Shown here: positions 397 through 12,781 of the stretch, piece after piece
Layout of the letters: the number at the start of each line of letters is the position of its first letter
Position numbering within the stretch: position 1 is the stretch's first letter
Assembly: GCA_902806095.1 (NCBI GenBank)
Contig: CADCVF010000016.1
Span: 1-46,142 of the forward strand
Length of the DNA stretch: 46,142 nt
Direction: 5' to 3'
Origin: an uncultured Rubrobacteraceae bacterium
GTDB lineage: Bacteria; Actinomycetota; Rubrobacteria; Rubrobacterales; Rubrobacteraceae
Position numbers and translations under genes: made by a program
The notes under the pieces: generated by a model
Seen by the model: only the letters and a program-made list of their open reading frames with translations
Databases searched by the model: none
What the model was told of the DNA's origin: nothing

Positions 397-466
397 GCGA
401 ACTTCTTAGAACTCCGTAAAGGCGAAGTTCGCAGAATACCTATTCCACGCACTCCGGTGACTAAGG
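397..466 (+). repeat. 70-bp intergenic repeat, copy 1
   Basis: Begins GCGAACTTC, continues to GAAGTTCGC (an inverted pair), then a conserved right half TTCCACGCACTCCGGTG and a TAAGG end. It lies between the first ORF and the methyltransferase gene. Six related copies occur up to base 5722, all in this orientation. Confidence 0.8.
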
Positions 467-551
467 CTGGGCAGTCTAAGGGGGCCCGTGGGATAACATG
501 TGTACGGTATGCGGGACGTGGGGTCGCAGCAACAAGGTGGAGGGAGGCAAC

Positions 552-1013
552 GTGCCTGAGGTCGCGAACCTAGGGATCGTGCGACCACCCGTCGTCTACC
601 TGAGCGCTATCGCTCTGGGCCTGTTGTTGCATCTCGCTTGGCCCTTGCGGCTCGCACCGACCGCCGTTGGCGTGCCCCTTGGGGCTATCGCGGTGCTCGT
701 CGCCGTCGCCCTGTTCCTCTACGCGGTTCGCACGCTTCGAAGTGCCGACACGCCCGTTCCGGGCAACCGCCCCACCACCACGATCGTGCGCACGGGACCC
801 TTCCGATTCAGTCGCAACCCCATATATCTGTCCTTCTCGCTGCTGCTGCTCGGCGTCGCCTTCTTGGTGAACAGTTGGTGGCTACTGGCAACCCTCGCGT
901 TGGCGGTGGCGCTGATGTCGTTCGTGGTCATCCCGGGAGAGGAGCGCTACCTGGAGAGACGCTTCCCGTCTGAGTATTTGCCCTACAAGGCTTCCGTGCG
1001 CCGCTGGCTGTAG
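552..1013 (+). CDS. Isoprenylcysteine carboxylmethyltransferase (ICMT/PEMT) family membrane methyltransferase
   Basis: A 153-aa integral membrane protein with about four hydrophobic segments. The C-terminal half has the family signature: TGPFRFSRNPIYLS, a hydrophobic hairpin, then PGEERYLERRFPSEYLPYK and a final VRRWL. In ICMT and phospholipid methyltransferases the RNP-Y and E-ERYL-F--EY residues bind S-adenosylmethionine. The substrate cannot be told from sequence. I prefer the GTG at 552, which has GGAGG/GGGAGG 4-8 nt upstream; an in-frame start at 498 would add 18 poorly conserved residues. It is a single-gene unit with one 70-bp repeat on each side. Confidence 0.8.
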   Translation: MPEVANLGIVRPPVVYLSAIALGLLLHLAWPLRLAPTAVGVPLGAIAVLVAVALFLYAVRTLRSADTPVPGNRPTTTIVRTGPFRFSRNPIYLSFSLLLLGVAFLVNSWWLLATLALAVALMSFVVIPGEERYLERRFPSEYLPYKASVRRWL

Positions 1014-1017
1014 GCGC

Positions 1018-1070
1018 TCGAGTTCGCAGAACTCCGTTAGTGCGAAGTTCGCAAAACCTTCCTTCTTAGG
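1018..1070 (+). repeat. 70-bp intergenic repeat, copy 2 (shortened)
   Basis: Holds the inverted left half (AGTTCGCAGAACTCCGTTAG then GCGAAGTTCGC) but lacks the CACGCACTCCGGTG right half seen in the others. It starts 5 nt after the methyltransferase stop codon. The 1071-1139 remainder holds nothing I recognise. Confidence 0.65.
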
Positions 1071-1139
1071 CTGTCCGAAAGGGTGCTGGTGGCCTACGGA
1101 ACGTAGGCCTTGGTAGCGTAGCACCGCAAGACCGGGCCC

Positions 1140-1808
1140 CTATGCTTCGGGCAAACCGCGCCCGCGCAGATACCTTCCGAACTGTTCGGGTGTGCGCACG
1201 CCGTGCTCCAGTACCGCCTCATAGATATCCATCCCGCTCACCCGATCGGGGTAGTAAGACCTGCGGTGCCACACGTCCTTGATCCACAGGATCGCCAGCC
1301 TCGTCTCGGGGGTGAGCCGCCTTCGCATCTCCTCCGCGTGCGCCAGCGGGCCAGGCGGCGACTCCGGTGCCCACAGCGAGACGTCTATCTTCCACTCCTC
1401 GCCCGCCTCCGTCTCGTGGCGCGCCACGAAGTAGTAGCGTCCGTGGCCCCGCAGCTCGGGCGGGGCGAGTCGCCCTGTCTCGTTGCGGTACTCCACCCTC
1501 GTGGTGCGCGGGTGGGCCGCCAGCGGCGCCATCGTCTCCCAAGCCCGTTCGGGACTCAGCCATCCGCAGGAGGCGCCGAGGTCGAGGTCCCGCCACACCA
1601 TCAGCCCGGACACCGAGCTGCCCAGCCGCTCGAAGCGTCCGGCTCCTCCCACCATCGTCGGCAGGTCGAGCTGCTCCACGAGCCGGTTTGCCTCGGCCTG
1701 CAGGATTTCCTGCTGCTCGAGCAGCCGAGCGGCGTATGTCGCCTCCGGGTGCTCACTATCCATTAGAGTCATCCTCTTGCGCTTTTCACTCGCTGAGTAT
1801 TCTCCCAT
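1140..1808 (-). CDS. Nucleotidyltransferase-fold-like protein of unknown function
   Basis: A 222-aa soluble protein. The segment RLGSSVSGLMVWRDLDL resembles the G-S-x(n)-D-x-D core of polymerase-beta-type nucleotidyltransferases. A later strand, EWKIDVSLW, could supply the third acidic residue, and helical ETRLAILWIKDVWHRR follows. The assignment is by motif only and the substrate is unknown. ATG 1808 has GGAGG 9 nt upstream; ATG 1763 (GAGG 9 nt upstream) is an alternative that would shorten it by 15 residues. A 70-bp repeat lies immediately upstream of the start. It is divergent from the small HTH gene at 1978. Confidence 0.6.
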   Translation of the reverse strand: MGEYSASEKRKRMTLMDSEHPEATYAARLLEQQEILQAEANRLVEQLDLPTMVGGAGRFERLGSSVSGLMVWRDLDLGASCGWLSPERAWETMAPLAAHPRTTRVEYRNETGRLAPPELRGHGRYYFVARHETEAGEEWKIDVSLWAPESPPGPLAHAEEMRRRLTPETRLAILWIKDVWHRRSYYPDRVSGMDIYEAVLEHGVRTPEQFGRYLRGRGLPEA

Positions 1809-1825
1809 GGGAAGGGGCCTCCGGC

Positions 1826-1903
1826 GCGAAGTTCGAAGAAAATAGCCCTACCCAGAGAGCGAACTTCCGAGAATTTCCCTTCCACGCCCTTGGGTGAATA
1901 AGG
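1826..1903 (+). repeat. 70-bp intergenic repeat, copy 3
   Basis: Contains GCGAAGTTCG, then GCGAACTTCCGAGAATTTCC, then TTCCACGCCCTTGGGTG and AATAAGG. The order of the two half-palindromes is inverted relative to copy 1, and the right half is conserved. It sits between two divergent genes. Confidence 0.7.
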
Positions 1904-1977
1904 GCAAGAGGAAGGGCCGGTGTATCCTTGTGGGGTGTCTCGCGGTCCCGTCTTCGGAGGGCAAGGAGGTTAGTAGG

Positions 1978-2157
1978 GTGGAAGACAAAAAACGCACGCA
2001 ACTCACCTTGTGGGAGGCGGCCGAGTATCTCGAGCTCACTCCTGAGGACGTCCAAGAGATGGTCGAAGGCGGGGAGCTCAAGGCCGACAAGTTCGCCGGT
2101 GCGATCCACATCCCTCGCGAAGAGGTAGAGCGCATCGAGCGCGAGAGCGCCCCGTAA
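1978..2157 (+). CDS. Small helix-turn-helix (excisionase/MerR-like) DNA-binding protein
   Basis: A 59-aa protein that is almost entirely one winged-helix excisionase-type domain: QLTLWEAAEYLELTPEDVQ (helix-turn-helix), a GGELKADKFAGAIHIP wing, then REEVERIERE. The GTG at 1978 is chosen because AAGGAGGT stands 8 nt upstream; an in-frame ATG at 1894 lies inside the repeat and gives an unlikely N-terminus. Such proteins act as recombination directionality factors or small repressors. No integrase is adjacent here, so its partner is unknown. Confidence 0.75.
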   Translation: MEDKKRTQLTLWEAAEYLELTPEDVQEMVEGGELKADKFAGAIHIPREEVERIERESAP

Positions 2158-2217
2158 GAGAGGGACCTCGGCCGAGCGGAGAATGATCCGGCGCCGGGAT
2201 GTTCTCACGCCGGCACG

Positions 2218-2288
2218 ACTTAGAACTCCATAAAAGCGGAACTCCAACTTCGGAGAATTAACCTTCCACGCACTAGGGTGAATAGAGG
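2218..2288 (+). repeat. 70-bp intergenic repeat, copy 4
   Basis: TTAGAACTCCATAAAAGCGG, then CCAACTTCGGAGAATTAACC, then TTCCACGCACTAGGGTG and AATAGAGG. The left palindrome is degenerate. It overlaps the 3' end of the leftward membrane-protein gene, supplying its stop codon. Confidence 0.75.
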
Positions 2289-2890
2289 AGCGGGAGGCCC
2301 CCGCTGTAGACGCCTACGAACGCAGCGGCCACCACGAGGCCGACGGCCACCGAGAGCGCGACGAGCGGCGGGCATCGGAGGCGTCCCACCGCGATCGCGC
2401 ACAGCAGGGCGACCCCGACGGCGATCTGGCCCCACCAGTAAGGCGGGTAGGTGGTGTGGGCGATGTAGGCGAGCCCGTAGACGCCCTCGCCGACCAGCAC
2501 GCCGCCCATCCCGCCCGCTCCGAGCGCGGCCAGGGTCCTGCGACCCGACCTCACCCAATGAGCGCCGAGGCCCAGGCAGGGGCCGACGAACACGGCGGCG
2601 AGGCCCCAGAAGATGATCAAAGTCGACCCCGACGGGTAGCCCCGCAGGCCAGCGCCGAGGACGTACCCGGCGAGCAGCGCGAGGAGTGCCAGCGCGCCGC
2701 ACACCGCCGCGACGCGCTGGCCGGTGGCAAAGAGCGCGAGCAGGAACGCGGCCAGGGCCCACGACCCGCTGGAATTGGCTAGGGAGCCCACCTCCTGGGG
2801 GAGCCACTTCTGCCCGTAGGCGGTGAGGACGCCGAGCGCCAGGCCGAGCAAACCGACCGTCGCCGTCAGCGCGACCGGACGAAGCTGCAC
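2273..2890 (-). CDS. DUF6518-like multi-pass membrane protein
   Basis: A 205-aa protein of about six hydrophobic segments. Early motifs GVLTAYGQKWLP and SLANSSGSWALAAF recall a family of small actinobacterial membrane proteins that I associate with DUF6518; this is memory of the pattern, not a search. Function is unknown. GTG at 2890 has AAGGA 6 nt upstream. The last codons (YSP-stop) lie inside repeat copy 4, so the C-terminal tail is partly repeat-encoded. The 180 bases upstream of the start (2891-3068) hold no clear gene. Confidence 0.65.
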   Translation of the reverse strand: MQLRPVALTATVGLLGLALGVLTAYGQKWLPQEVGSLANSSGSWALAAFLLALFATGQRVAAVCGALALLALLAGYVLGAGLRGYPSGSTLIIFWGLAAVFVGPCLGLGAHWVRSGRRTLAALGAGGMGGVLVGEGVYGLAYIAHTTYPPYWWGQIAVGVALLCAIAVGRLRCPPLVALSVAVGLVVAAAFVGVYSGGLPLLYSP

Positions 2891-3068
2891 GGTAGGTCCT
2901 TGCGATCTTTGGCTGTTTTGACCTCTTCCATGAATGCGTCCGGCTCGTCCATCTGTCCCTCATTAGCGTCGTGCGTGGTCCATGGGCAGCTTACCAGCGC
3001 CGCCAGCGGTGGTCAGTTGTGCTCCATTCTCCAAGGGTCGAGGGCCGGGGCTATGCAGGATGCTGGAT

Positions 3069-3140
3069 GCGAACTTCCGAGAACTCTGGATAGGCGAAGT
3101 TCGCAGAATTCCTCTTCTACGCACTCCAGTGAACTAAGGG
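3069..3140 (+). repeat. 70-bp intergenic repeat, copy 5
   Basis: GCGAACTTCCGAGAACTCTG, then GGCGAAGTTCGCAGAATTCC, then TTCTACGCACTCCAGTG and AACTAAGG. It is the best match to copy 1 and lies between two leftward genes. Bases 3141-3236 downstream hold only a short palindrome GGGTTCGAACCC. Confidence 0.8.
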
Positions 3141-3236
3141 GGTGTGCTCGCCCTTATGCTCGCGGAGCCACAAAACTTTGGAAACGGCGCGCTCGCCGCC
3201 ACGGGCCCCTCCGATTACGGGTTCGAACCCACAGAG

Positions 3237-4952
3237 CTAGGAGACTAGGAGCTCCGTAGCCTTCTCTGTAGAGCATGGCCTGTACCAATAGTATCCCTGG
3301 GCAATGTCGCAACCCATCGATCGCAATGCATCCAGCTCTCCGGCGGTCTCCACGCCCTCGACCACCACATCGAGGCCCAGCGCGTGCGCGAAGCCTATAG
3401 TCGCCGAGACTAACGCCCGGTTCTGGGGGTCTCCGTCCATCCCCTCTACCATCGACCGGTCCAACTTGAGGATGTCCACAGGCAAGCTCTTGAGGGTGGT
3501 GATCGAGGAGTAGCCGGTCCCGAAGTCGTCCATCGCGAGCGTCAATCCGAGGCCTTTTAGCGCCCGCAGGATGCCCCTGGCGTCCGGTCCTTTCTCCATC
3601 ATCACGCTCTCGGTGATTTCCAGAACCACATCCCGCGGCTCCGTTCCGGTCTCGGAGAGGATTGCCGCAACTTCCTCGACGAGTTCAGGGTAGCGAAATT
3701 GGCGGGCGGAGAGGTTCACGGACATCCTCAGTGGCGCCTCGTGAGGTATTTGCTCGCGGAAGATGCGCACCTGGCGGCAGGCCTCCGCAAGCACCCACTG
3801 TCCCAAGGCAATGATCATCCCGGTCTCCTCGGCCAGAGAGATGAACTCGGAAGGGGCCAGCAGCCCGCGCTCCGGGTGCTCCCACCTCACCAGGGCCTCG
3901 AAGCCTACCGTCTCGCCCGTGCTCATCATAATCTGGGGCTGGTAGTAAACTCGGAGCTCCCCGCGCTCTATCGCCCTTCTGAGGTCCTCCTCAAGCCCCA
4001 GGCGCTCGAGCGAGTGGTTCATCCCAAAGGAGAAGATCTCGTGGCGGTTCTTGCCCTGGCGCTTGCTCCGGTACATGGCTATATCCGCCCTTCTCATAAG
4101 CTCCTCGGCGTAGTACTCGCCGGTCTCGCCGGGGGCAGCCACCACGACTCCGATGCTGGTGGTCACGACCGCCCCATGGCCGTCAACCTGGAAGGGGGCA
4201 CTCAGATCCTGTTTGATCCTCGCCGCGACGCCGGCAGCTTGGACGACGTCTTCGAGGCCTTCGAGCAGCATGGCGAACTCGTCCCCCCCGAAGCGAGCGA
4301 ACGTGTCGCCGAGGCGCAACCGGCTCGCTACGCGCTCGGCCACCCCCACCAGGAGTTGGTCGCCTACGGCGTGGCCCAGAGAGTCGTTGAAGCGCTTGAA
4401 GTCATCCAGGTCCATGTATAGCAACGCGAGCCCGCACGCCTCGCCCCGCTCGGCCTGTCGCTTGGCCCGAGAGAGGCCTTGTCCCAGACGGTCCAGAAAG
4501 AGCGCCCGGTTGGGCAGGCCGGTCAGGGAGTCGTGGAAAGCTTGATGGGCGAGCTCATCCTCGAGCGCCTTACGATCGGTGAAGTCCTCGAACACGAGCC
4601 CTACCTGCAGCAGAGTCCCGGTCTCGTCCCTGACGGGATAGATGAACGCCTGCAGCCAACGCGCCCTCGTCTCGGGTGTCGCCTCGCAGAACAAAATTGG
4701 CGTGGTCACCGCAGCGTTTTGCCTACACTCTTCAATGTAAGGGGCAAGCCCCATGGCGCGCAGCCGCTCATTCTCGAAGACGCTCGAGCTCTCCGGGAAC
4801 CCATATTCTCCCCGGGACCACAGAGCGTTCCAGGCGGCATTTACCAGCAGGTAGCGACCGTCGGGATCGAGAATGGCGGTGGCTAGCGGAGACTGCTCTA
4901 TGGTTGTGCGCAAGTGCAGCTCGGTGGAAGATCCTCGTTTTTCTATCCCCAT
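3237..4952 (-). CDS. PAS-GGDEF-EAL cyclic-di-GMP signalling protein
   Basis: A 571-aa protein with no obvious transmembrane segment. An N-terminal PAS domain (about residues 10-135; TTIEQSPLATAILDPDGRYL) is followed by a GGDEF domain with an intact FGGDEF motif near 220, so diguanylate cyclase activity is possible. The EAL domain has VGFEALVRWEHPERG near 351 and AMDDFGTGYSS near 474, the metal-binding pattern of active phosphodiesterases, so it may make or degrade c-di-GMP under PAS control. ATG 4952 is preferred (AAGAAGGG 4 nt upstream); an in-frame ATG at 5021 has no ribosome binding site and would add 23 residues. It is divergent from the cupin gene, with repeat copy 6 between them. Confidence 0.92.
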   Translation of the reverse strand: MGIEKRGSSTELHLRTTIEQSPLATAILDPDGRYLLVNAAWNALWSRGEYGFPESSSVFENERLRAMGLAPYIEECRQNAAVTTPILFCEATPETRARWLQAFIYPVRDETGTLLQVGLVFEDFTDRKALEDELAHQAFHDSLTGLPNRALFLDRLGQGLSRAKRQAERGEACGLALLYMDLDDFKRFNDSLGHAVGDQLLVGVAERVASRLRLGDTFARFGGDEFAMLLEGLEDVVQAAGVAARIKQDLSAPFQVDGHGAVVTTSIGVVVAAPGETGEYYAEELMRRADIAMYRSKRQGKNRHEIFSFGMNHSLERLGLEEDLRRAIERGELRVYYQPQIMMSTGETVGFEALVRWEHPERGLLAPSEFISLAEETGMIIALGQWVLAEACRQVRIFREQIPHEAPLRMSVNLSARQFRYPELVEEVAAILSETGTEPRDVVLEITESVMMEKGPDARGILRALKGLGLTLAMDDFGTGYSSITTLKSLPVDILKLDRSMVEGMDGDPQNRALVSATIGFAHALGLDVVVEGVETAGELDALRSMGCDIAQGYYWYRPCSTEKATELLVS

Positions 4953-5042
4953 GTCGCCCTTCTTTAGCGAGGCCCGGAAGAAAGGTGTCAGCCTCCCCTG
5001 TGCCGTAATTGTAGACGGCATGGCCCGAAAGGTGTGGAAGAA

Positions 5043-5091
5043 GCGGTTGAACTTCGGAGAATTATTCTTCCACGAACTCCGGTGAATAAGC
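5043..5091 (+). repeat. 70-bp intergenic repeat, copy 6 (partial)
   Basis: Carries only the right two thirds: TTGAACTTCGGAGAATTATT, then CTTCCACGAACTCCGGTG and AATAAG. It lies between the divergent EAL and cupin genes. Confidence 0.7.
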
Positions 5092-5162
5092 GTAGCACCA
5101 CCCTTAGAGGCTCTTACTAGGGACGGATCGGCTAAACTGGCCGTTCACGAAAGGGGGACACC

Positions 5163-5525
5163 TTGGATCACCGCCCGCCTTCCATAAAGGTAGATAAGCC
5201 CTGGGGCCGCTTCGAACAGTACACGCACAACCTCCCCTGCACGGTCAAGATCATCACCGTCGCCCCTGGCGGCAAGCTCTCCAGCCAGTACCATCACCAC
5301 CGCGACGAGCTCTGGGTCGTGCTGGACGAGGGAGTTCGGGTCCAACTGGACGAAGATGTCCTCCAGCCCGAGGTCGGCGAGGAACTTTTCATCCCGCGAG
5401 GGACGGTACACAGGCTCTTTACGGCGGGCGAGGAGGAGGTCAGGATACTGGAGATCTCCTTCGGCGAGTTCGACGAGGAGGACATCGTAAGGCTCGAGGA
5501 CGTCTACGGGCGCCTCGCCCAGTAG
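5163..5525 (+). CDS. Cupin-domain protein, mannose-6-phosphate isomerase type II-like
   Basis: A 120-aa single-cupin protein. The start KPWGRFEQYTHN and the PGGKLSSQYHHHRDELWVV motif (metal-binding histidines and glutamate), then EELFIPRGTVHRLF, match the C-terminal isomerase domain of ManC-type enzymes. Stand-alone versions are usually called phosphomannose isomerase type II or generic cupins, and activity here is unproven. The TTG start at 5163 is supported by AAGGGGG 5 nt upstream. It is monocistronic, with repeat copies 6 and 7 on either side. Confidence 0.8.
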   Translation: MDHRPPSIKVDKPWGRFEQYTHNLPCTVKIITVAPGGKLSSQYHHHRDELWVVLDEGVRVQLDEDVLQPEVGEELFIPRGTVHRLFTAGEEEVRILEISFGEFDEEDIVRLEDVYGRLAQ

Positions 5526-5651
5526 TAGTGTATGAGGGTTACGGTGCGGGAGAAGGGCCTGGCGTAGATCTCCTGCGGGCTTAGGGGAAGTTCAGCCGCG
5601 AAGCCCGCCCCCGGTCCAAAACTGCCCGCGTTCCAGGTGGGGCACCTGGGG

Positions 5652-5722
5652 CCGAACTTCGGAGAACTGCGTAAAGACGAAGGTCGCAGAATTCATATTC
5701 CACGCACTCGGGTGCATAGAGG
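5652..5722 (+). repeat. 70-bp intergenic repeat, copy 7
   Basis: CCGAACTTCGGAGAACTGCG, then GACGAAGGTCGCAGAATTC, then TTCCACGCACTCGGGTG and CATAGAGG. It is the last copy I find. Base composition drops in GC just to the right, suggesting a boundary near 5725. Confidence 0.75.
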
Positions 5723-5848: not shown

Positions 5849-5877
5849 TTGACGGCTCATATTGACACGCTTAGAAT
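5849..5877 (+). promoter_or_regulatory. Sigma-70-type promoter upstream of the zinc-ribbon gene
   Basis: TTGACG (5849-5854), a 17-nt spacer and TAGAAT (5872-5877). Transcription would begin near 5884 and run into the gene whose ribosome binding site AGGAGGTG lies at 5985-5992. The remainder of 5526-5848 holds repeat copy 7 and no gene. Confidence 0.55.
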
Positions 5878-6143
5878 ATCTACAGTTCACTCTTGCGCCT
5901 TGAAGAAGATTGGCGCGTTTCTCTTTCCTTCTTACATCGGGGCTTCTTGCTTCCATGAGCCATACCCATCATTTCGTATAACTGAGGAGGTGTCCTACTC
6001 TGGCGGCCGAAAGTAGCGACAATGCACGCGCACGACTTATAAAGACCCGCCGCGGGACATGGATAGATGAAAGCCTGCTACCCGCCGCACGTCGGGAGTG
6101 CCTAAAGATCCTTCGAATAGCATCCCAAGCTGTAGGTGAGGGT

Positions 6144-6797
6144 ATGGCGAAGAGAGTTCGCAATGTTGGGCAGCCTGTGGAGGAAGATTCATCACTAAGC
6201 GATCTGTTCGCTCCTAAAGGATACCGTGCCCGCGTTTCCGACGAACTGGAATCACTGCATGCGGAGTTCCTCAAGTACAGACTACCTGAAGAAGTGAGAG
6301 CGTCGGAAGTTGCCTACGAAGCAATACAAGGCGTGAGAACATGTGGCTTCTGCGCTCGGGATCTGTCCCCGAAGGAGCCTGCGTACCTCGGCGCGAAAAT
6401 CTACGTCGGCATGTGGCCCCTCTCTTGGGACTACGGCAGGAAGCCGCAGATTGGCAAGCCTCTCTACGAAGACACGGTGCTATGCAGTTCGTGCGCGCCG
6501 GAGTGGTTATCACCGGAGAGAGACGACGTAGTAATGCAGCTCTGCGCGCACTGCGAACGCCCGATGGTATCGCCTCTGGATCTTTTCGCGCTTCGACGCA
6601 CGTTCTGTTCTGATCGCTGCAAAGAGGCATATCGAGAGGAGCTACGCGAGGAGAAGAAAGCTGAAGAACGCAAGAAGGTCTGCGAGGTCTGCGGCGAGGA
6701 GTTCACCGCATCCCGTCGGGACGCCAAGACTTGCTCCGACAGGTGCAAGCAGAAAGCTTACCGACAACGGACGAAGGAGGTGAAACAGACAAGGTAG
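6144..6797 (+). CDS. Multi-zinc-ribbon protein of unknown function
   Basis: A 217-aa soluble protein with paired cysteines: CGFCARDL with CSSCAPEW, CAHCERP with FCSDRCKE, and a C-terminal CEVCGEEF...TCSDRCKQKAYRQR ribbon. The last resembles small treble-clef or zinc-ribbon domains found in mobile elements and may bind nucleic acid. No enzyme motif was seen. ATG 6144 has AGGTGA 4 nt upstream. The frame is open back to 5982 and a strong AGGAGGTG precedes a CTG at 6000, so a 48-residue N-terminal extension is possible. Codon use is less GC-biased than in core genes, fitting acquisition. A terminator follows at 6824. Confidence 0.65.
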   Translation: MAKRVRNVGQPVEEDSSLSDLFAPKGYRARVSDELESLHAEFLKYRLPEEVRASEVAYEAIQGVRTCGFCARDLSPKEPAYLGAKIYVGMWPLSWDYGRKPQIGKPLYEDTVLCSSCAPEWLSPERDDVVMQLCAHCERPMVSPLDLFALRRTFCSDRCKEAYREELREEKKAEERKKVCEVCGEEFTASRRDAKTCSDRCKQKAYRQRTKEVKQTR

Positions 6798-6823
6798 ATC
6801 AATTTATCAGTCGAGTAATGATG

Positions 6824-6846
6824 CCCCGGCATGTCCGGGGTTTTTT
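6824..6846 (+). terminator. Rho-independent terminator
   Basis: Stem CCCCGG/CCGGGG (6824-6829 and 6835-6840), loop CATGT, then six T (6841-6846). It ends the zinc-ribbon transcript 27 bases after its stop codon. Confidence 0.85.
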
Positions 6847-6917
6847 CATGCCCACGGAGCGATCCTCGCTCCTCACCAAATTGTCTGTAAACCACAGATC
6901 TAGAGAGGTGGTGCGTC

Positions 6918-7130
6918 GTGTCCGAAGACGACGAGAAGATAGCCATTACGCCCGCATGGCTTAACTATAAGCAAAGTGAAACTTACTCGGGTCTGTCCAG
7001 GACAACTCTCTGGCAGCTCATAAACGCCCGGAAAATCAAGGCGGCACGCATCGGCCGGGCGGTTCGCATTGAGAAGACGTCACTTCAGAGGTTCATGGAG
7101 CAGAGCACCGAAGACCTGGGAGTTCTGTGA
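6918..7130 (+). CDS. Excisionase-type helix-turn-helix protein
   Basis: A 70-aa protein. LNYKQSETYSGLSRTTLWQL and INARKIKAARIGRAVRIEK form the helix-turn-helix and wing of the HTH_17/excisionase family; SLQRFMEQ closes the domain. GTG at 6918 has AGAGGTG upstream. It is the likely recombination directionality factor of this element and may also repress its genes. Its TGA overlaps the GTG of the next gene (GTGA, 7127-7130), implying translational coupling. Confidence 0.8.
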   Translation: MSEDDEKIAITPAWLNYKQSETYSGLSRTTLWQLINARKIKAARIGRAVRIEKTSLQRFMEQSTEDLGVL

Positions 7131-7534
7131 AGGTGAAGCCAGTAGAGTTGGTTGTGAAAAGGGCCGAAGGCGTTCGGCGAGTTAAATCCGGCTGGATGCT
7201 CTCCTGCCCGCTTCCGGGACATGGCAGGGGTTTTGGGGATAGGAAGCCGAGCGTGAGCCTCACCGAGGGCGACGATAGCCGTGCGCTCGTAAACTGCCAG
7301 GCCGGGTGCCAGACGGAGGATATCGTCGCCGAGTGGGGCCTAAACATGAGCGATCTGTTCGAGAACCGTAACGTCCACAGGGGAGGGGGGTCTTGTACCT
7401 CCCGACAAACAACGTCAACCGATCAACCGGCCACGCTGGAGAACTACGCCGCATACGTCGGGCTCCCTGTTGCGTTCCTAAAGAGCCTCGAGCGGCACAG
7501 CGCCGGCGCCCGACTCTACGAGGCCATCCCGTGA
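7127..7534 (+). CDS. Primase-type zinc-ribbon protein, probably a truncated paralogue
   Basis: 135 aa. Residues ~25-70 (CPLPGHG...GDRKPSVSLTEGDD...NCQAGC) match the CHC2-like zinc ribbon at the front of phage and plasmid primases. The tail TLENYAAYVGLPVAFLKSL, ending EAIP, resembles the linker that in full-length relatives leads into an IPY motif and then the catalytic domain; here it stops at that point. I infer it is the front end of a second primase kept as a separate protein. The start overlaps the excisionase stop (GTGA) and the stop overlaps the next start (GTGA, 7531-7534), so three genes are coupled. Confidence 0.7.
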   Translation: MKVKPVELVVKRAEGVRRVKSGWMLSCPLPGHGRGFGDRKPSVSLTEGDDSRALVNCQAGCQTEDIVAEWGLNMSDLFENRNVHRGGGSCTSRQTTSTDQPATLENYAAYVGLPVAFLKSLERHSAGARLYEAIP

Positions 7535-9564
7535 GCGCCGTGGATAGGGTCCTCGAGCACGTCGAGGGCGTCCAGGAGAAGGGCAACGGCTTCTGGGCTC
7601 TCTGCCCCGCCCACGACGACCACAACCCCAGCTTACACATCCAGCAAAGCGACGACGGCAGCGCCCTCATCATCTGCCGCGCCGGGTGCGACCAGGGTGA
7701 CGTCGTCGATGCGCTCGAGAGACGCGGCTTGAAACGGAGCGACCTGTTCGCAAGTAAACAGGTCGCGAGCGTGGTTCCCTTCGACGGACGCTCTAATGCG
7801 TCCAGAAGCCCTTCTAAAGGGCGCGAACGACTCGTAAAGAACTATCACATCAAAGACGAAGCCGGGCGGCTGTGCGGCATTCACGAGCGCTGGGAGGACC
7901 CCGAGACGCCGGACGCAAAGAGCTTCAAGTGGAAGCTGCCGAACGGTCGATACAGCCAGGGCGACATAAGCCCTGCCGCCATGCCCCTGTTCGGCTCCGA
8001 ACTCCTCGCGGACTGGCCAAAAAATTACCGGGTCGTACTTTGCGAAGGGGAGACGCCGGCCGCCGCCCTACGGTCCCGCAACATTAGGGCCGTGGGGACC
8101 GTGTGCGGTGCAAAGTTGATACCCGACGCGCCAGCCCTTGAAGTCTTGCGAGGGCGTCCTGTGGTCGTGTGGGGAGACGGAGACCCCCTGGGCCAGAAAC
8201 ACGCAGAACGCCTCGTGCGCGCCCTGCGGGGCGTGGCCGCGTCGGTCCAACTCTACGAGTGGACCGACCCACCGGAGGGCGTGAAGGGGGCCGATGCCGC
8301 CGACCACCCCGCCGTCCGGAGCGGCGACCGCGAGGAGATCAAGGCCCTCGTGAGACAACTCCGGGATGCCCCAGAGGCCAACGTCGACCAGGACCAGGTG
8401 CCCGCGTTACGGGACCGGGTGTTGCTCGGCAAGATAATGCGCGAGGGCGTCGAGCCGCCGGAGGAGTTGGTGCAGGACGTACTTCTTGCGGGCAAGGTTC
8501 ACTCCCTGTATAGCGCGGCGAGCACGGGAAAGACGTTTTTGATGTTGTGGCTCGTCCTGCGCGTCCTCGAGCAAGGTTTGAGGGTCCTGATATTCGACCG
8601 GGAGAACGGACACCGTATCATGGCGGAGCGCCTGGAAGCCCTAGGGGCAGACCCCGAAAAGGTAGACGAGCTGCTCTACTACTCCTTCTACCCAGAGCTC
8701 CCCACGACGGAAGAGGGGCTTCTGGACTACGAGAACACCCTGGATGAGGTGAAACCGGCCCTCGTGGTGTTCGACTCCCTTATCGGCTTTCTGGCCGCCA
8801 ACGGCCTGGACGAGAACTCTTCCAACGACGTCTCCACTTGGGCAACTCACTACGCGCACCCGGCGCGCAGCCGGGGCACCACGGTTTTACTCCTGGACCA
8901 TGTTCCGAAAGAGGGCGTCAGCTCGCGGGGCTCGAGCCGGAAGCGCGACGAGGTCGACGTGATGTGGGCGCTCCGCAACCCACTACCCTTCGACCGGGAC
9001 ACGGTTGGGCGTATCGTCATCCACCGCGAGAAGGACCGCGAGGGATGGCTGCCCGACAACATCGGGTTCTCCGTGGGCGGGGGCGAAGATGGTTTGGTGT
9101 TCGCCCGTTCATTGGGAACCATCGAGGCCAAGGGGGACGACGGCCTAACGAAGTCCGCCCGAATCACCCTTGAGGCCCTCGGATCACTCGAAAAGAAGGG
9201 TGCCACGACCGCCGAATGGGAGAAGGCGGCCTCTGGCATGGGTGTTTCGCGGACCTCGTTCTACCGTGCCAAACGCAGCGAAGGCGTGAAAAGCCGGATT
9301 TTCCTGCAAAACGGGCGTTATTACCTCAAAGGTGCCACAGGTGCCAAACAAGTGCCACGGGACCACATGGCACCGGGGGCGACACCGGCCAGGAGGAAGG
9401 GTTCTTCGACCTCGAATCGTGGGAGGAAACCTTTTGAAGTCGCAAACGACGCCGCAGATTCTCCGGTGTCTGCCCCTCGGCCAGTACACCGCTCGCGTGG
9501 AGAAGGGCGAGCTGGGGATACGAGGGCCGCAGCCGCTCACCGGTCCGCTGCCCGCAAGCATTAG
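7531..9564 (+). CDS. Primase-helicase-like replication protein (zinc ribbon, Toprim, RepA/AAA ATPase)
   Basis: 677 aa. Domain order: CHC2-like zinc ribbon (~15-65; CPAHDDHNPSLHI...CRAGC); Toprim-like region (~150-240; VVLCEGETPAAAL...VVVWGDGDPLGQKHA); RepA-type RecA-fold ATPase (~315-500) with Walker A SAASTGKT and Walker B ALVVFDSL, plus VLLLDHVPKEG; and a C-terminal winged-helix-like segment (~540-610; TTAEWEKAASGMGVSRTSF). It would unwind and prime DNA at the element's origin. GTG 7531 is used: it overlaps the previous stop and begins just before the conserved ribbon; the frame runs open upstream only as an artefact of overlap. It overlaps the next gene by 131 nt. Confidence 0.82.
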   Translation: MSAVDRVLEHVEGVQEKGNGFWALCPAHDDHNPSLHIQQSDDGSALIICRAGCDQGDVVDALERRGLKRSDLFASKQVASVVPFDGRSNASRSPSKGRERLVKNYHIKDEAGRLCGIHERWEDPETPDAKSFKWKLPNGRYSQGDISPAAMPLFGSELLADWPKNYRVVLCEGETPAAALRSRNIRAVGTVCGAKLIPDAPALEVLRGRPVVVWGDGDPLGQKHAERLVRALRGVAASVQLYEWTDPPEGVKGADAADHPAVRSGDREEIKALVRQLRDAPEANVDQDQVPALRDRVLLGKIMREGVEPPEELVQDVLLAGKVHSLYSAASTGKTFLMLWLVLRVLEQGLRVLIFDRENGHRIMAERLEALGADPEKVDELLYYSFYPELPTTEEGLLDYENTLDEVKPALVVFDSLIGFLAANGLDENSSNDVSTWATHYAHPARSRGTTVLLLDHVPKEGVSSRGSSRKRDEVDVMWALRNPLPFDRDTVGRIVIHREKDREGWLPDNIGFSVGGGEDGLVFARSLGTIEAKGDDGLTKSARITLEALGSLEKKGATTAEWEKAASGMGVSRTSFYRAKRSEGVKSRIFLQNGRYYLKGATGAKQVPRDHMAPGATPARRKGSSTSNRGRKPFEVANDAADSPVSAPRPVHRSRGEGRAGDTRAAAAHRSAARKH

Positions 9565-9724
9565 GGCGCAGCGTGGCGAGCTGATGGACTTCCTGAACGA
9601 GTGGGCTGGCGGGGTATGGCCACCGGCGCCGGGGTCCGGGCTCCGGGAGGTAGAGCGTATCTTAGGACACGGCCTCGCCGCAGCGCTGGATGCCGTCGAG
9701 GCGGAGTTGGAGGGGGCGGCGTGA
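9434..9724 (+). CDS. Small hypothetical element protein
   Basis: A 96-aa protein starting at TTG 9434 with GGGAGG 7 nt upstream, inside the 3' end of the primase gene in another frame. It contains LPLGQYTARVEKGELGIRGP, SIRAQRGELMDFLNEWA and a helical C-terminus. A small ORF after the primase with G-E-L-x-x-R-G-P is a pattern I have met in actinobacterial integrated elements, but no function is known. It may be coupled to the primase. Confidence 0.55.
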   Translation: MKSQTTPQILRCLPLGQYTARVEKGELGIRGPQPLTGPLPASIRAQRGELMDFLNEWAGGVWPPAPGSGLREVERILGHGLAAALDAVEAELEGAA

Positions 9725-9837
9725 ATCTCTATTTACCACGGTCCTCACCAATCTCAGCAAAGAAAGCCAGGACAGTGACAGCGGACGCACGATGTAGCAA
9801 AATGCGGGGGCGAACATGTGTCTGCGGTAGGAGGTGA
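9721..9837 (+). CDS. Possible 38-aa coupled ORF
   Basis: GTG at 9721 overlaps the TGA of the preceding gene (GTGA). The peptide is basic with three cysteines (CSKMRGRTCVCGRR at its end). It has no recognisable domain and could be chance; bases 9838-9891 lead into the next gene. Confidence 0.25.
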   Translation: MNLYLPRSSPISAKKARTVTADARCSKMRGRTCVCGRR

Positions 9838-9891
9838 GCAATCAGAGTTGATTAGCAGATTAGACACCTTGACCACCAAAAAAAGGAAAGC

Positions 9892-10305
9892 ATGACAGAA
9901 CTAGCAATACCGGAACGCAAACAGCCGTACCGCAAATTCACCCCCGAGCAGATGGTAAGAGCCTTGGAGGAATCTAAAGGGTTGATAGCACCAGCGGCTA
10001 GGGCACTAGGCTGCTCCCGGGCCACCGTCAGAAGTTACATAGACGAATACAGCGCTGTTGCGCAAGCTAAGCTCGACCAGGAAGAAGCGGTAAAGGATAT
10101 GGCTGAGAATGCCCTATACGCCGCTATCCTGCGCGGTGAAGCCTGGGCGATATGTTTCTATCTCAAATGCAGGGCCAAGGATCGCGGGTATGTGGAGCGG
10201 GCAGAGCTAACAGGTGCACAAGGTGCTCCCGTCAAGATCAAACTCGCATATGAGAGTAGTGGCGCTGGCAGCGTCCCAGGCAGCGGGGTCTCTCCTCCAG
10301 TGTGA
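9892..10305 (+). CDS. Phage terminase small subunit-like / helix-turn-helix DNA-binding protein
   Basis: 137 aa. An N-terminal helix-turn-helix (~20-55; MVRALEESKGLIAPAARAL, GCSRATVRSYIDEY) is followed by helices EAVKDMAENALYAAILRGEA and WAICFYLKCRAKDRGYVER, then a flexible Gly/Pro tail. This order matches small terminase subunits or related packaging adaptors. No large terminase is present, so the element could redirect a helper phage's packaging; that is inference. ATG 9892 has AAGGA 5-6 nt upstream. Confidence 0.7.
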   Translation: MTELAIPERKQPYRKFTPEQMVRALEESKGLIAPAARALGCSRATVRSYIDEYSAVAQAKLDQEEAVKDMAENALYAAILRGEAWAICFYLKCRAKDRGYVERAELTGAQGAPVKIKLAYESSGAGSVPGSGVSPPV

Positions 10306-10310
10306 GGCCT

Positions 10311-10341
10311 CCTCGGCGGGGGGGGGCCTAAAAAGCCGAGG
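10311..10341 (+). terminator. Hairpin after the terminase-like gene
   Basis: Stem CCTCGGC/GCCGAGG (10311-10317, 10335-10341) around a loop with a run of nine G. It starts 6 nt after the stop codon. There is no clear T-run, so termination is only probable. Confidence 0.4.
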
Positions 10342-10452
10342 GTCTGGAAAAGGCGCCACGGCCACCCAGATGTTTTACACAAATCCCATCTCTTCACCTG
10401 AAAAGTAGGCAATATCCTTAATGCTCCAAACCCAGACACGGAGGGCGATTGC

Positions 10453-10610
10453 ATGAGGGTTGCGGTATTGCATGGAGCTTCTGGTCCAAGGCGGGCAGGT
10501 CAGGTATTCTTCTCGGTGAGGGTTAAAGGTCTTCGAGGGGAGCTTCACGATGCCGAACGCCGGTCAGAATGCGTTGCTGGAAAGTCTCAAGTCTTTTGCA
10601 GACACCTTAA
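10453..10610 (+). pseudogene. 5' fragment of the integrase gene, interrupted by an IS
   Basis: ATG 10453 with GGAGGG 7 nt upstream opens a frame that runs to the TTAA at 10607-10610, where the IS begins. As it stands the frame stops inside the IS after about 56 codons. Joining 10610 to 11668 (removing the IS and one TTAA) puts this fragment in frame with KLDEYLDRWLADSV of the integrase and yields a 361-aa protein, a normal size for the family. The fragment (MRVAVLHGASGPRR..., FFSVRVKGLRG) occupies the arm-binding-domain position, though I cannot match it to that domain by eye. Confidence 0.6.
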
Positions 10611-10640
10611 ACGCTTGGTGTGATTTATTGGCGAAGATTT

Positions 10641-10737
10641 GAGAGGAAGGTGTCCATTCGCTAGAGTCGGCTTGCTGCCCGATCCCGAAGGGAAAGGAAC
10701 CGACTCCTCATGCTCGACTTAAGGACACCTTCCTCTC
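10641..10737 (+). other. Nested hairpin between the IS left end and transposase start
   Basis: Outer arms of 15 bp (10641-10655 GAGAGGAAGGTGTCC with 10723-10737) enclose inner arms of 7 bp (10664-10670 GAGTCGG with 10700-10706). All are perfect. The transposase ATG follows 13 nt later. Such structures may block translation of transposase from read-through transcripts; this is inferred from position. Confidence 0.6.
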
Positions 10738-10750
10738 CACACTTTACGTT

Positions 10751-11641
10751 ATGGTGGACGACTTCTGCCAGTCCCTTTCGCCAACGAAGAAACCAGGTCC
10801 GCAAGCTTCCCTCTGTGCGAGCGAGGTCATCACCCTGGCCATCTTCGCTCGGTGGGGCCGTTTCTCTAGCGAGCGGGACTTCTACCGCTATGCAACGGCC
10901 CGTCTGTGCAACGCTTTTCCCACCCTGCCAGATCGCTCGCAGTTCAACCGCTTGGTGCGCTCCCACGAGGAACTCATCGAGCGTTTCATCGTGCATCTGC
11001 TGTCTGTGTTGGAGGCGCAAGGACCTCCCCCTTAGGAGGCTTTGGATAGCTCGGCGATGCCTACCCGAGACTGCAAGCGCCGAGGGCATGGCTGGATGGC
11101 CGGGCAGGCCGACATCGGTTGGAGTAATAGCCTGGGATGGTACGAGGGCTTTAGCTTGTTGACCGCCGTCGACTCTAGCGGGGTCATAACGGGCTTCTGC
11201 TTCGCAGCCGCTTCCACAGCCGACCAGAAAATGGCGGAAACCTTCTTCGCCCTCAGAGCCCGAGCGGACCGAAGGCTCATCAGCGTGGGCACGGCTGCTA
11301 GCGGCCCCTACATAACCGACAAGGGTTTCGATGGCGCCGAGAACCACCTCAGGTGGCTCGAAAGCTACGGGGCGCACGTCATCCATCCGCCCAAGCGCAA
11401 CTCCCGCAAGCGAAGCTGGTCCAAACGCTTGAGGCGATGGATGGCGGGCATCCGCCAGATAGTGGAGAGCGTCTACGACAAGCTCTTCAACACCTTCGGC
11501 CTCTGGGGAGAGCGGCCCCATGAGCTTGAGGGTTTGCGGGCTCGACTGGCGGCGAGGGTGGCTCTGCACAACTTCTGCATCTGGCTCAATGATCAGCTCG
11601 GTCGTCCTCGTTTGGCCTTCGCCGACCTGTTGGGATGGTGA
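10751..11641 (+). pseudogene. IS5/IS982-like transposase with an in-frame TAG
   Basis: One frame from ATG 10751 to TGA 11639-11641, interrupted by a single TAG at 11033-11035. The front part (MVDDFCQSL, SEVITLAIFARWGRFSSERD, LPDRSQFNRLV) is the helical N-terminal region of the IS982/IS5 group. The rear part supplies DDE residues: LDSSAMPTRD, ITDKGFDG and VESVYDKLFNTF. Everything else is in one frame with no shift, so a nonsense mutation is the simplest reading; read-through would restore about 296 residues. Confidence 0.8.
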
Positions 11642-11667
11642 CCTCACAATTCACACCAAGCGTTTAA

Positions 11668-12595
11668 GCTCGACGAGTACCTAGATCGGTGGCTGGCCGA
11701 CAGCGTGGCCGATACGGTTAGGCCAACTACCTTCGAGCGGTACGAGCAGATTGTCCGGGTCCACATACGCCCGGCCCTGGGTAACCTCAAGCTCAAGAAC
11801 GTGACGCCCACCCATGTGCGCGGCCTTTACCGCGAGAAGCTACAGGTTGGGCTCTCGTCCCGCACGGTACAGTACGTTCACGTCACCCTCCACAAGGTTC
11901 TGAAGCAAGCCGTAGCCGACGGCCTCATTCCACGCAACGCCACCGAAGCGGTCAGGCCACCACAGGTCAGGAAGGAAGAGATACGGCCTTTGACGGCAGA
12001 GCAGGTGAAGACGTTGTTCGACGCCGTGCAAGGCGACAGGCTCGAATCACTCTACATCCTTGCCGTCCACACCGGACTGCGGCAGGGCGAGTTGCTCGGC
12101 TTCAAATGGGGAGATGTTGACCTTGAGGCCGGGACGTTGCAGGTGCGGCGCACGCTGACGACGGCAAAGGGCGGCCCAATGCTCTCCTCCCCTAAGACCA
12201 AAGGTAGCCGTCGCACCGTAAAGCTCTCCCAGACGGCCCTGGAAGCCCTCAGAAGCCATCTGGAGCGCCAGTTAACGGAGATAGACCGGGCGGGCGATCT
12301 CTGGCACGAGAACGGCCTCATATTCGCTACTGAGTGGGGAGAGTTCTTGAACCGTCACTACCTGACCACGCACCGTTTCAAGCCCCTGCTCAAGCGGGCG
12401 GACCTACCGCAGATTCGCTTCCACGACCTCCGGCACACGTGCGCCACGCTGTTGCTCTTGAAGAACGTCAACCCGAAGATAGTGTCCGAGATGCTCGGAC
12501 ACTCAAGCATAGCCATCACCCTGGACACATACTCGCACGTGTTGCCCAACATGCAGAACGAGGCCGCTGCGGCAATGGAGGACGCCCTAACCTAG
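11668..12595 (+). pseudogene. Tyrosine-recombinase integrase, 3' part (phage/ICE type)
   Basis: Core-binding domain (KLDEYLDRWLADSV, TTFERYEQIVRVHIRPALG) and catalytic domain with the full tyrosine-recombinase set: Arg in HTGLRQGELLGFKW, HxxR in FHDLRHTCATLLL, GHSSIAITLDTYSH with the nucleophilic Tyr. It would integrate the element at tRNA-Leu. The 5' end is separated by the IS. The first possible start left is GTG 11705, which has no ribosome binding site and gives 296 aa lacking the arm-binding domain and part of the core-binding domain. Catalytic residues are intact, so damage is recent. Confidence 0.88.
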
Positions 12596-12602
12596 AGGTC
12601 AG

Positions 12603-12621
12603 TGGTGTCAAGATGGTGTCA
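12603..12621 (+). promoter_or_regulatory. Paired GGTGTCA repeats, possible integrase arm sites
   Basis: TGGTGTCA occurs at 12603-12610 and 12614-12621, 11 bp apart, about one helical turn. They lie between the integrase stop and the tRNA end, where arm-type integrase sites are expected. The rest of 12622-12697 shows no gene. Confidence 0.4.
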
Positions 12622-12697
12622 GGAGTGCCTGGCTGAGTCACACCGGGCACTTCCTCACACAACGTTAATTTCCTTGCTTTGCAGCGGATTTACACAG

Positions 12698-12781
12698 TAG
12701 GGGCGGTGGGACTCGAACCCACACTCCTTCTCAGGACCCGGATTTTAAGTCCGGTGCGTCTGCCGATTCCGCCACGCCCCC
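12698..12781 (-). tRNA. tRNA-Leu (UAA anticodon)
   Basis: An 84-nt cloverleaf with the long variable arm of a class II tRNA: acceptor GGGGGCG pairing with CGCCCCT (one G-U at the tip), D-arm GCGGAATCGGCAGACGC, anticodon loop with TAA in a CCGGA/TCCGG stem, T-arm GTGGGTTCGAGTCCCAC and discriminator A. No CCA is encoded. A TATACT -10-like box lies at 12796-12801. The integrated element abuts its 3' end, and enough tRNA sequence remains for a normal fold. Confidence 0.95.

Follow-up and report, generated by a model that had tools for sequence, protein, structure and literature searches.

Candidate gene-cassette arrays of integron-like organization, separated by a box-containing repeat, in uncultured Rubrobacteraceae

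Introduction

Integrons are the best-known system storing and shuffling single-gene cassettes. In the Xer dif (pdif) modules of Acinetobacter, the sites that delimit the modules are 28 bp long, dif-like and found in both C/D and D/C orientations. Actinobacteria have been reported to be without complete integrons (PMC9024848), and elements of the IS110/IS1111 group are described as targeting attC sites as well as REPs (PMC11187229). Open-licence papers on Rubrobacter together with integrons, repeats or mobile elements describe no arrays of the kind presented below.

The DNA analysed here, referred to as the window, is a stretch of 46,142 nucleotides from an uncultured Rubrobacteraceae bacterium, corresponding to contig C16 of a draft assembly of 3.83 Mb and 85 contigs. 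We consider it probable, from comparison of the sequences, that the first part of this contig belongs to a set of gene-cassette arrays that would work like integron arrays, by site-specific recombination at a short box; confidence goes no further than that because no recombinase was found and no excised cassette was seen.

As in integrons and CALIN, the Rubrobacteraceae cassettes are of about 1 kb, carry one gene and lie head to tail, with sites in uniform orientation and exchange inside the site; a 5' anchor is followed by different first cassettes, and IS110/IS1111-type elements insert in the site. Unlike integrons, they occur in a family without IntI, at sites that have neither GTTRRRY/RYYYAAC boxes nor a conserved folded structure and that are instead conserved in sequence, with genes in random orientation and dozens of starts per genome as against one. 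The likeness to the Xer dif/pdif modules of Acinetobacter lies in gene modules placed between short sites with no dedicated recombinase in cis, while the difference is that all copies of a Rubrobacteraceae array share one orientation. The site also appears unrelated in sequence to the actinobacterial dif.

The repeat and the genes of the window

The first-pass annotation had described a 70-bp palindromic repeat, always in the same orientation, in each gap of a short gene cluster. Seven copies (397, 1018, 1826, 2218, 3069, 5043 and 5652) are indeed present, one per gap between six unrelated genes, and all seven are on the + strand with flanking genes that read both ways. The core TTCCACGCACTCSGGTGAATA, searched with up to 3 mismatches, matched five times in the window (443, 1880, 2264, 5068 and 5698) against 0.00 expected from 100 dinucleotide shuffles. 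Thus the repeat is real and non-random, but the description as a uniform 70-bp unit did not hold, since copies vary and the unit consists of a box present once or twice plus a leader. Across about 290 leader-bearing copies from nine genomes, the box CGAASTTCnnAGAA often occurs twice, 25 bp apart and as a direct repeat, and is followed by the leader CTTCCACGCACTCSGGTGAATAGGG, which has subtypes such as CTTCTACGAGGTTGGGTGAATA; the longest near-identical tract of the repeat is the 22-bp leader CTTCCACGCACTCSGGTGAATA. The palindromic look has its source in the individual boxes, each of which is self-complementary (GAA-S-TTC). Pairing between the arms of box1 and box2 is possible, with no covariation beyond column composition or over shuffles in a test of nine arm pairs, one of which was placed on a gap column; RNAalifold predicted no consensus structure for 24 copies, and Rfam, searched with the repeat and with one array, returned nothing relevant.

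The window opens, on the + strand, with an incomplete cassette, of which the contig start has left the 3' part (1-397); over positions 1-283 it matches a portion of a further array cassette from this genome (contig C27, L072:8000-8282) at 92.6% identity. All repeat copies that follow are on the + strand. Copy 1 (398-466) has the full form, with box1 at 398-411, box2 at 423-436 and the leader at 437-466, and is followed by a gene of the phospholipid/isoprenylcysteine methyltransferase family (498-1013, + strand; PF04191, PF04140). Copy 2 (1022-1066, the copy at 1018) consists of two boxes only, its leader being degenerate or missing, and precedes a gene for a 222-aa protein with no Pfam family (1140-1808, - strand). 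Copy 3 (1827-1904) is of full form with a spacer 8 bp longer, and the small helix-turn-helix protein next to it (1894-2157, + strand; PF12728) probably has its true start codon downstream of the called one. In copy 4 (2219-2288), box1 is truncated and an insertion lies ahead of box2; the called end of the adjoining open reading frame for a DUF6518 membrane protein (2273-2890, - strand; PF20128) overlaps the repeat leader. Copy 5 (3070-3138), again of full form, has the start-type motif TATGCAGGATGCTGGA ahead of it, a partial match to start model R2, and is followed by a gene for a PAS-GGDEF-EAL protein of 594 aa (3237-5021, - strand; PF00990, PF00563). Copy 6 (5049-5090, the copy at 5043) has box2 and the leader but no first box, a cupin of the mannose-6-phosphate isomerase type follows (5163-5525, + strand; PF01050), and copy 7 (5653-5722), of full form, ends this array.

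That no copies lie beyond 5722 was borne out by both the core search (up to 3 mismatches) and a profile search. They are absent there because the array gives way to an integrated element at 5.8-12.7 kb and then to conserved chromosomal genes, pyk, eno and mfd among them, from about 13 kb onward. The integrated element (5849-12595) carries no repeats, encodes a helix-turn-helix protein, a primase/ATPase, a transposase and an integrase (11705-12595) that adjoins a tRNA-Leu (12697-12781), and is outside the cassette system. Integrase-tRNA islands like the one at 5849-12781 were also seen near arrays at L079, L082 and L127.

Arrays across the genome and the family

The repeat is not confined to the window: a search of the 3.8 Mb draft gave more than 100 copies. 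Most of them form runs in which up to 15 copies share one orientation and adjacent copies enclose a single gene, as with 15 copies over 14.5 kb on contig C5, eight with a leader on C34 (a contig of 11.7 kb) and five on C76; some box-only copies are dispersed. Among relatives, seven further genomes of the genus carry arrays, as does one genome (G014) of another Rubrobacteraceae genus; G006 is array-poor, with seven copies, and G009, G011 and G012 have no arrays. Among the genomes searched, the repeat was absent from some relatives in the family and from other families. Exact leader matches in species-level genomes came almost entirely from Rubrobacteraceae MAGs, the exception being a single, possibly misbinned contig with the label Thermomicrobiales, and no match was found in viral contigs, phages or plasmids. 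The arrays are known from uncultured desert and soil Rubrobacteraceae.

The intervals between co-oriented copies (n=169) have a median of 1027 bp and hold one gene in 131 cases; repeats fell inside ORFs in 24/293 cases versus 0.67 expected. Single cassette genes run along the repeat in 62 cases and against it in 69, and their orientation is thus random, gene counts and orientations here being taken from ORF heuristics and not from a gene caller. The products are diverse and include an APH-type phosphotransferase, CsbD-like proteins, a glyoxalase, a formate/nitrite transporter, MFS and RibD-like proteins, an O-methyltransferase, a sulfatase, SBP56, cupins and GGDEF-EAL proteins. A sigma-factor-like gene lies in a two-part cassette that was encountered twice in G004 (L087:9589-11685 and L094:1096-2993) and once in G005 (L114:232-2432), with different neighbours among its copies, and the L094 copy contains a transposase.

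Neighbouring copies less than 2 kb apart are co-oriented in 152 cases and opposed in 16 (sampled loci of nine genomes). Such strong local co-orientation would also be left by an element that transposes as a single strand, in the style of IS200/IS605 or RAYT, into one replication strand. We regard this as extremely improbable: divergent arrays begin 174-550 bp apart (L134, L133, L072 and L031), repeat orientation switches within single contigs such as C76 and C19, and the Y1 (RAYT-type) transposases, of which the genome has only two, are not flanked by repeats. At L031, divergent arrays start about 500 bp apart (10855- and 11400+), which argues against an orientation set by replication.

Exchange of genes at the repeats

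The first-pass annotation had asked whether gene content between copies varies while the repeats are kept, and the same or near-identical cassettes do recur in other contexts in related genomes. One cassette is common to L096:4365-4921 (G004) and L111:3967-4370 (G005) at 98.6% identity, the identity running from CGAAGTTCGCAGA in the left repeat to CGAAGTTCCGAGAAC in the right repeat and the DNA beyond these points being unrelated. The cupin cassette of the window recurs in G005 (L110:5552-5952) at 87%, between other neighbours; L114 and L126 (94%) diverge directly after GAAGTTCGCAGAAC, and L107, L110 and L121 have a common gene end followed by three different next genes. Some shared ends are IS or MITE insertions, and in one copy the leader is split by an insert that resembles a MITE, is about 150 bp long and has the ends GAAACTGTTTGGAAAAG and CTTTTCCAAACAGTTT (L096:4700-4925).

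The position of the edges was derived from segment identities. In the 12 pairs that share the left side only, compared in register, identity was 0.83 in the flank, 0.83 in box1 and 0.67 in the spacer, and fell to 0.38 immediately past box2 and to 0.28 further on, against random values of 0.32 and 0.29. In the seven pairs that share the right side only, it was 0.27 in the flank and 0.43 in the spacer, at or slightly above random level up to that point, and 0.89 in the leader and 0.87 beyond. The crossover zone would therefore be box2 plus a short spacer, a stretch of about 18 bp (the box CGAASTTCnnAGAA plus spacer), while a few breakpoint pairs fit box1 instead. The leader and the 3' part travel with different genes. 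Homologous stretches continued across a repeat-bearing gap in 0/174 cases and across other gaps in 28/172, pair counts that are not independent, although a single conserved junction would have appeared among 174; the loci were chosen for having repeats, and most of the genomes are MAGs. Assembly chimeras were rejected as a source of these edges, given that the longest shared tract begins only downstream of the exchanges and that the same pattern occurs in nine genomes.

These observations bear on the view that the sequence is an ordinary REP/MITE-type intergenic repeat inserted many times in variable regions, where gene turnover would have other origins and the repeats would only be carried along. 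With its short, self-complementary intergenic units in more than 100 copies, some of them dispersed as box-only copies, it does resemble REP/BIME sequences, and IS110/IS1111 elements target REPs too. It departs from REP/BIME sequences with a RAYT in being mostly co-oriented, present once per gene, linked to gene exchange and without a RAYT. The 152:16 ratio stands against REPs of many families, which pair in opposite orientation (PMC3733652); neither of the two Y1 transposases is near copies; the value of 0/174 means that no empty site was seen; and the edges fall within one 18-bp stretch, on the two sides of which leader and 3' part accompany different genes. An ordinary repeat is accordingly unlikely, although the first-pass annotation had given it equal weight and had named dispersed copies unlinked to gene gain or loss as its mark: copies are found genome-wide, but in co-oriented arrays tied to gene turnover. 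The other guess made there, of single-gene cassettes, gains support from the moved cassettes, the edges in the repeat, the 0/174 continuity and the variable first cassettes.

These first cassettes lie behind a longer, 165-bp form of the repeat, in which a conserved arm (GCATCTTTATSCAACACCACAACATGTAG) replaces box1 and a TATGCARGATCCTGCA palindrome lies ahead of the box. No co-oriented copy was present within 3 kb upstream in 14 of the 15 testable start-type elements, versus 43 of 212 junction copies (Fisher 1e-8). Array-rich members have tens of start elements per genome, G006 has three and G010 eight. At L171, L184 and L194 (G004 and G005), the upstream gene and the start are common at 87-89% and the downstream DNA is unrelated; L076 and L101 show the same pattern, the start kept and the downstream DNA different, at 76%, and conversely L196 and L212 share a first cassette behind different starts. 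A fixed start with variable first cassettes is as expected of an attI-like anchor, which would be analogous and not homologous to attI.

Homologous or microhomology-mediated recombination between repeats, for example after DNA uptake, would need no site-specific enzyme, and the numerous repeats, their short identical tracts and the failure to find an enzyme in cis are in its favour. On the other hand, the exchanges lie upstream of the 22-bp leader, in the 14-bp box plus spacer, and such recombination predicts neither the strict head-to-tail order nor special array starts, which makes it distinctly unlikely. The breakpoints point rather to site-specific recombination. According to the proposed scheme, a cassette would usually be one gene of about 1 kb with the leader at its 5' end and box1 plus spacer at its 3' end, cassettes would be joined to each other at the box, and recombination between boxes would insert, remove or reorder single cassettes, arrays growing 3' of the 165-bp anchor acting as attI. 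This scheme would involve a site-specific recombinase acting at the box and cassettes that pass through a free, probably circular, form.

Search for a recombinase

Sixteen Rubrobacteraceae genomes, the majority more than 90% complete, gave no hit above the cut-off to the integron integrase model TIGR02249. A true integron integrase, L147 (G030:C56:1898-2836; 424 bits to TIGR02249), was seen in another family of the same phylum. The consensus GCGAASTTCnnAGAA plus leader holds no GTTRRRY/RYYYAAC core, and the initial judgement that the site falls outside the attC core was correct. The arrays could conceivably be remnants of true integrons (CALIN) whose attC sites have diverged strongly, IntI having been lost or lying in unassembled DNA; the array form and the attI-like anchor agree with this, the GCGAAC/GTTCGC arms around GAA/TTC recall R boxes, and IntI does exist in the phylum (G030). 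We nevertheless hold it to be highly unlikely in view of the missing GTTRRRY core, consensus structure and arm covariation, the gene orientation of 62:69, the 0/16 result for IntI and the literature, where complete integrons are not reported from Actinobacteria (PMC9024848). By definition, the system is not an integron: the family has no IntI, and the site has no GTTRRRY core and no covarying hairpin, with genes in random orientation.

It had further been suggested that a REP-associated or other recombinase gene near copies would support mobility, but the surroundings of the arrays yielded no gene for a dedicated recombinase; among the listed parts of 20 further start loci, examined as orthologous array starts, none was seen either. 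The tyrosine integrases of phage type are located at tRNAs. A single one of them (L037:2950-4119) adjoins an array start, directly upstream of it and divergent from the array, as in an integron; this candidate was set aside, its relatives in other genomes not being beside repeats. A decayed relative of 70-73% identity lies in G002:C219, with no repeats nearby in the locus read. An Xer-like recombinase was also rejected, being universal in the family, genomes without repeats included. The actinobacterial dif pattern had no match within 3 mismatches in the draft genome. Serine recombinases are frequent, and a few of them share a contig with starts, with no consistent link.

In 6/6 copies of an IS110-family element (PF01548), the left end falls at one fixed position within the box, CTCAT^CTTCnnAGAA. 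These copies are at L381-L386 (G000, G005 and G008), and several are frameshifted or truncated. The fixed insertion point is like that of the IS1111-attC insertion sequences; each element appears as a parasite of its site, and movement of cassettes by them is not implied. Because it occurs in only 3 of 13 genomes, the IS110-family element was rejected as the cassette enzyme and more probably parasitizes the site. As the IS110 group is known to target attC sites and REPs, the insertions mark the box as a recurrent target and do not decide between the readings. The element of an IS5-like transposase likewise stops precisely at the repeat box in each of two species (L117:2319-3203 and L123:18-994). 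The proposed enzyme would be encoded in trans, and most arrays would need to be served in this way.

Conclusions

In conclusion, the sequence comparisons show co-oriented one-gene arrays in which both exchange edges of a unit fall in the box region, synteny is lost at every repeat and fixed starts are followed by different first cassettes. Whether these arrays represent an independently evolved cassette system of the Rubrobacteraceae, with its own box site, dozens of attI-like anchors per genome, genes facing either way and a recombinase other than IntI acting in trans, is in our estimate an even matter. If box-directed site-specific recombination is true, cassette storage would have arisen a second time from different parts, and the site, being short and defined, would allow the enzyme to be hunted directly. 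A desert and soil lineage would then keep a large reservoir of shuffled accessory genes, among them those for phosphotransferases, glyoxalases, transporters, methyltransferases, sulfatases and signalling proteins.
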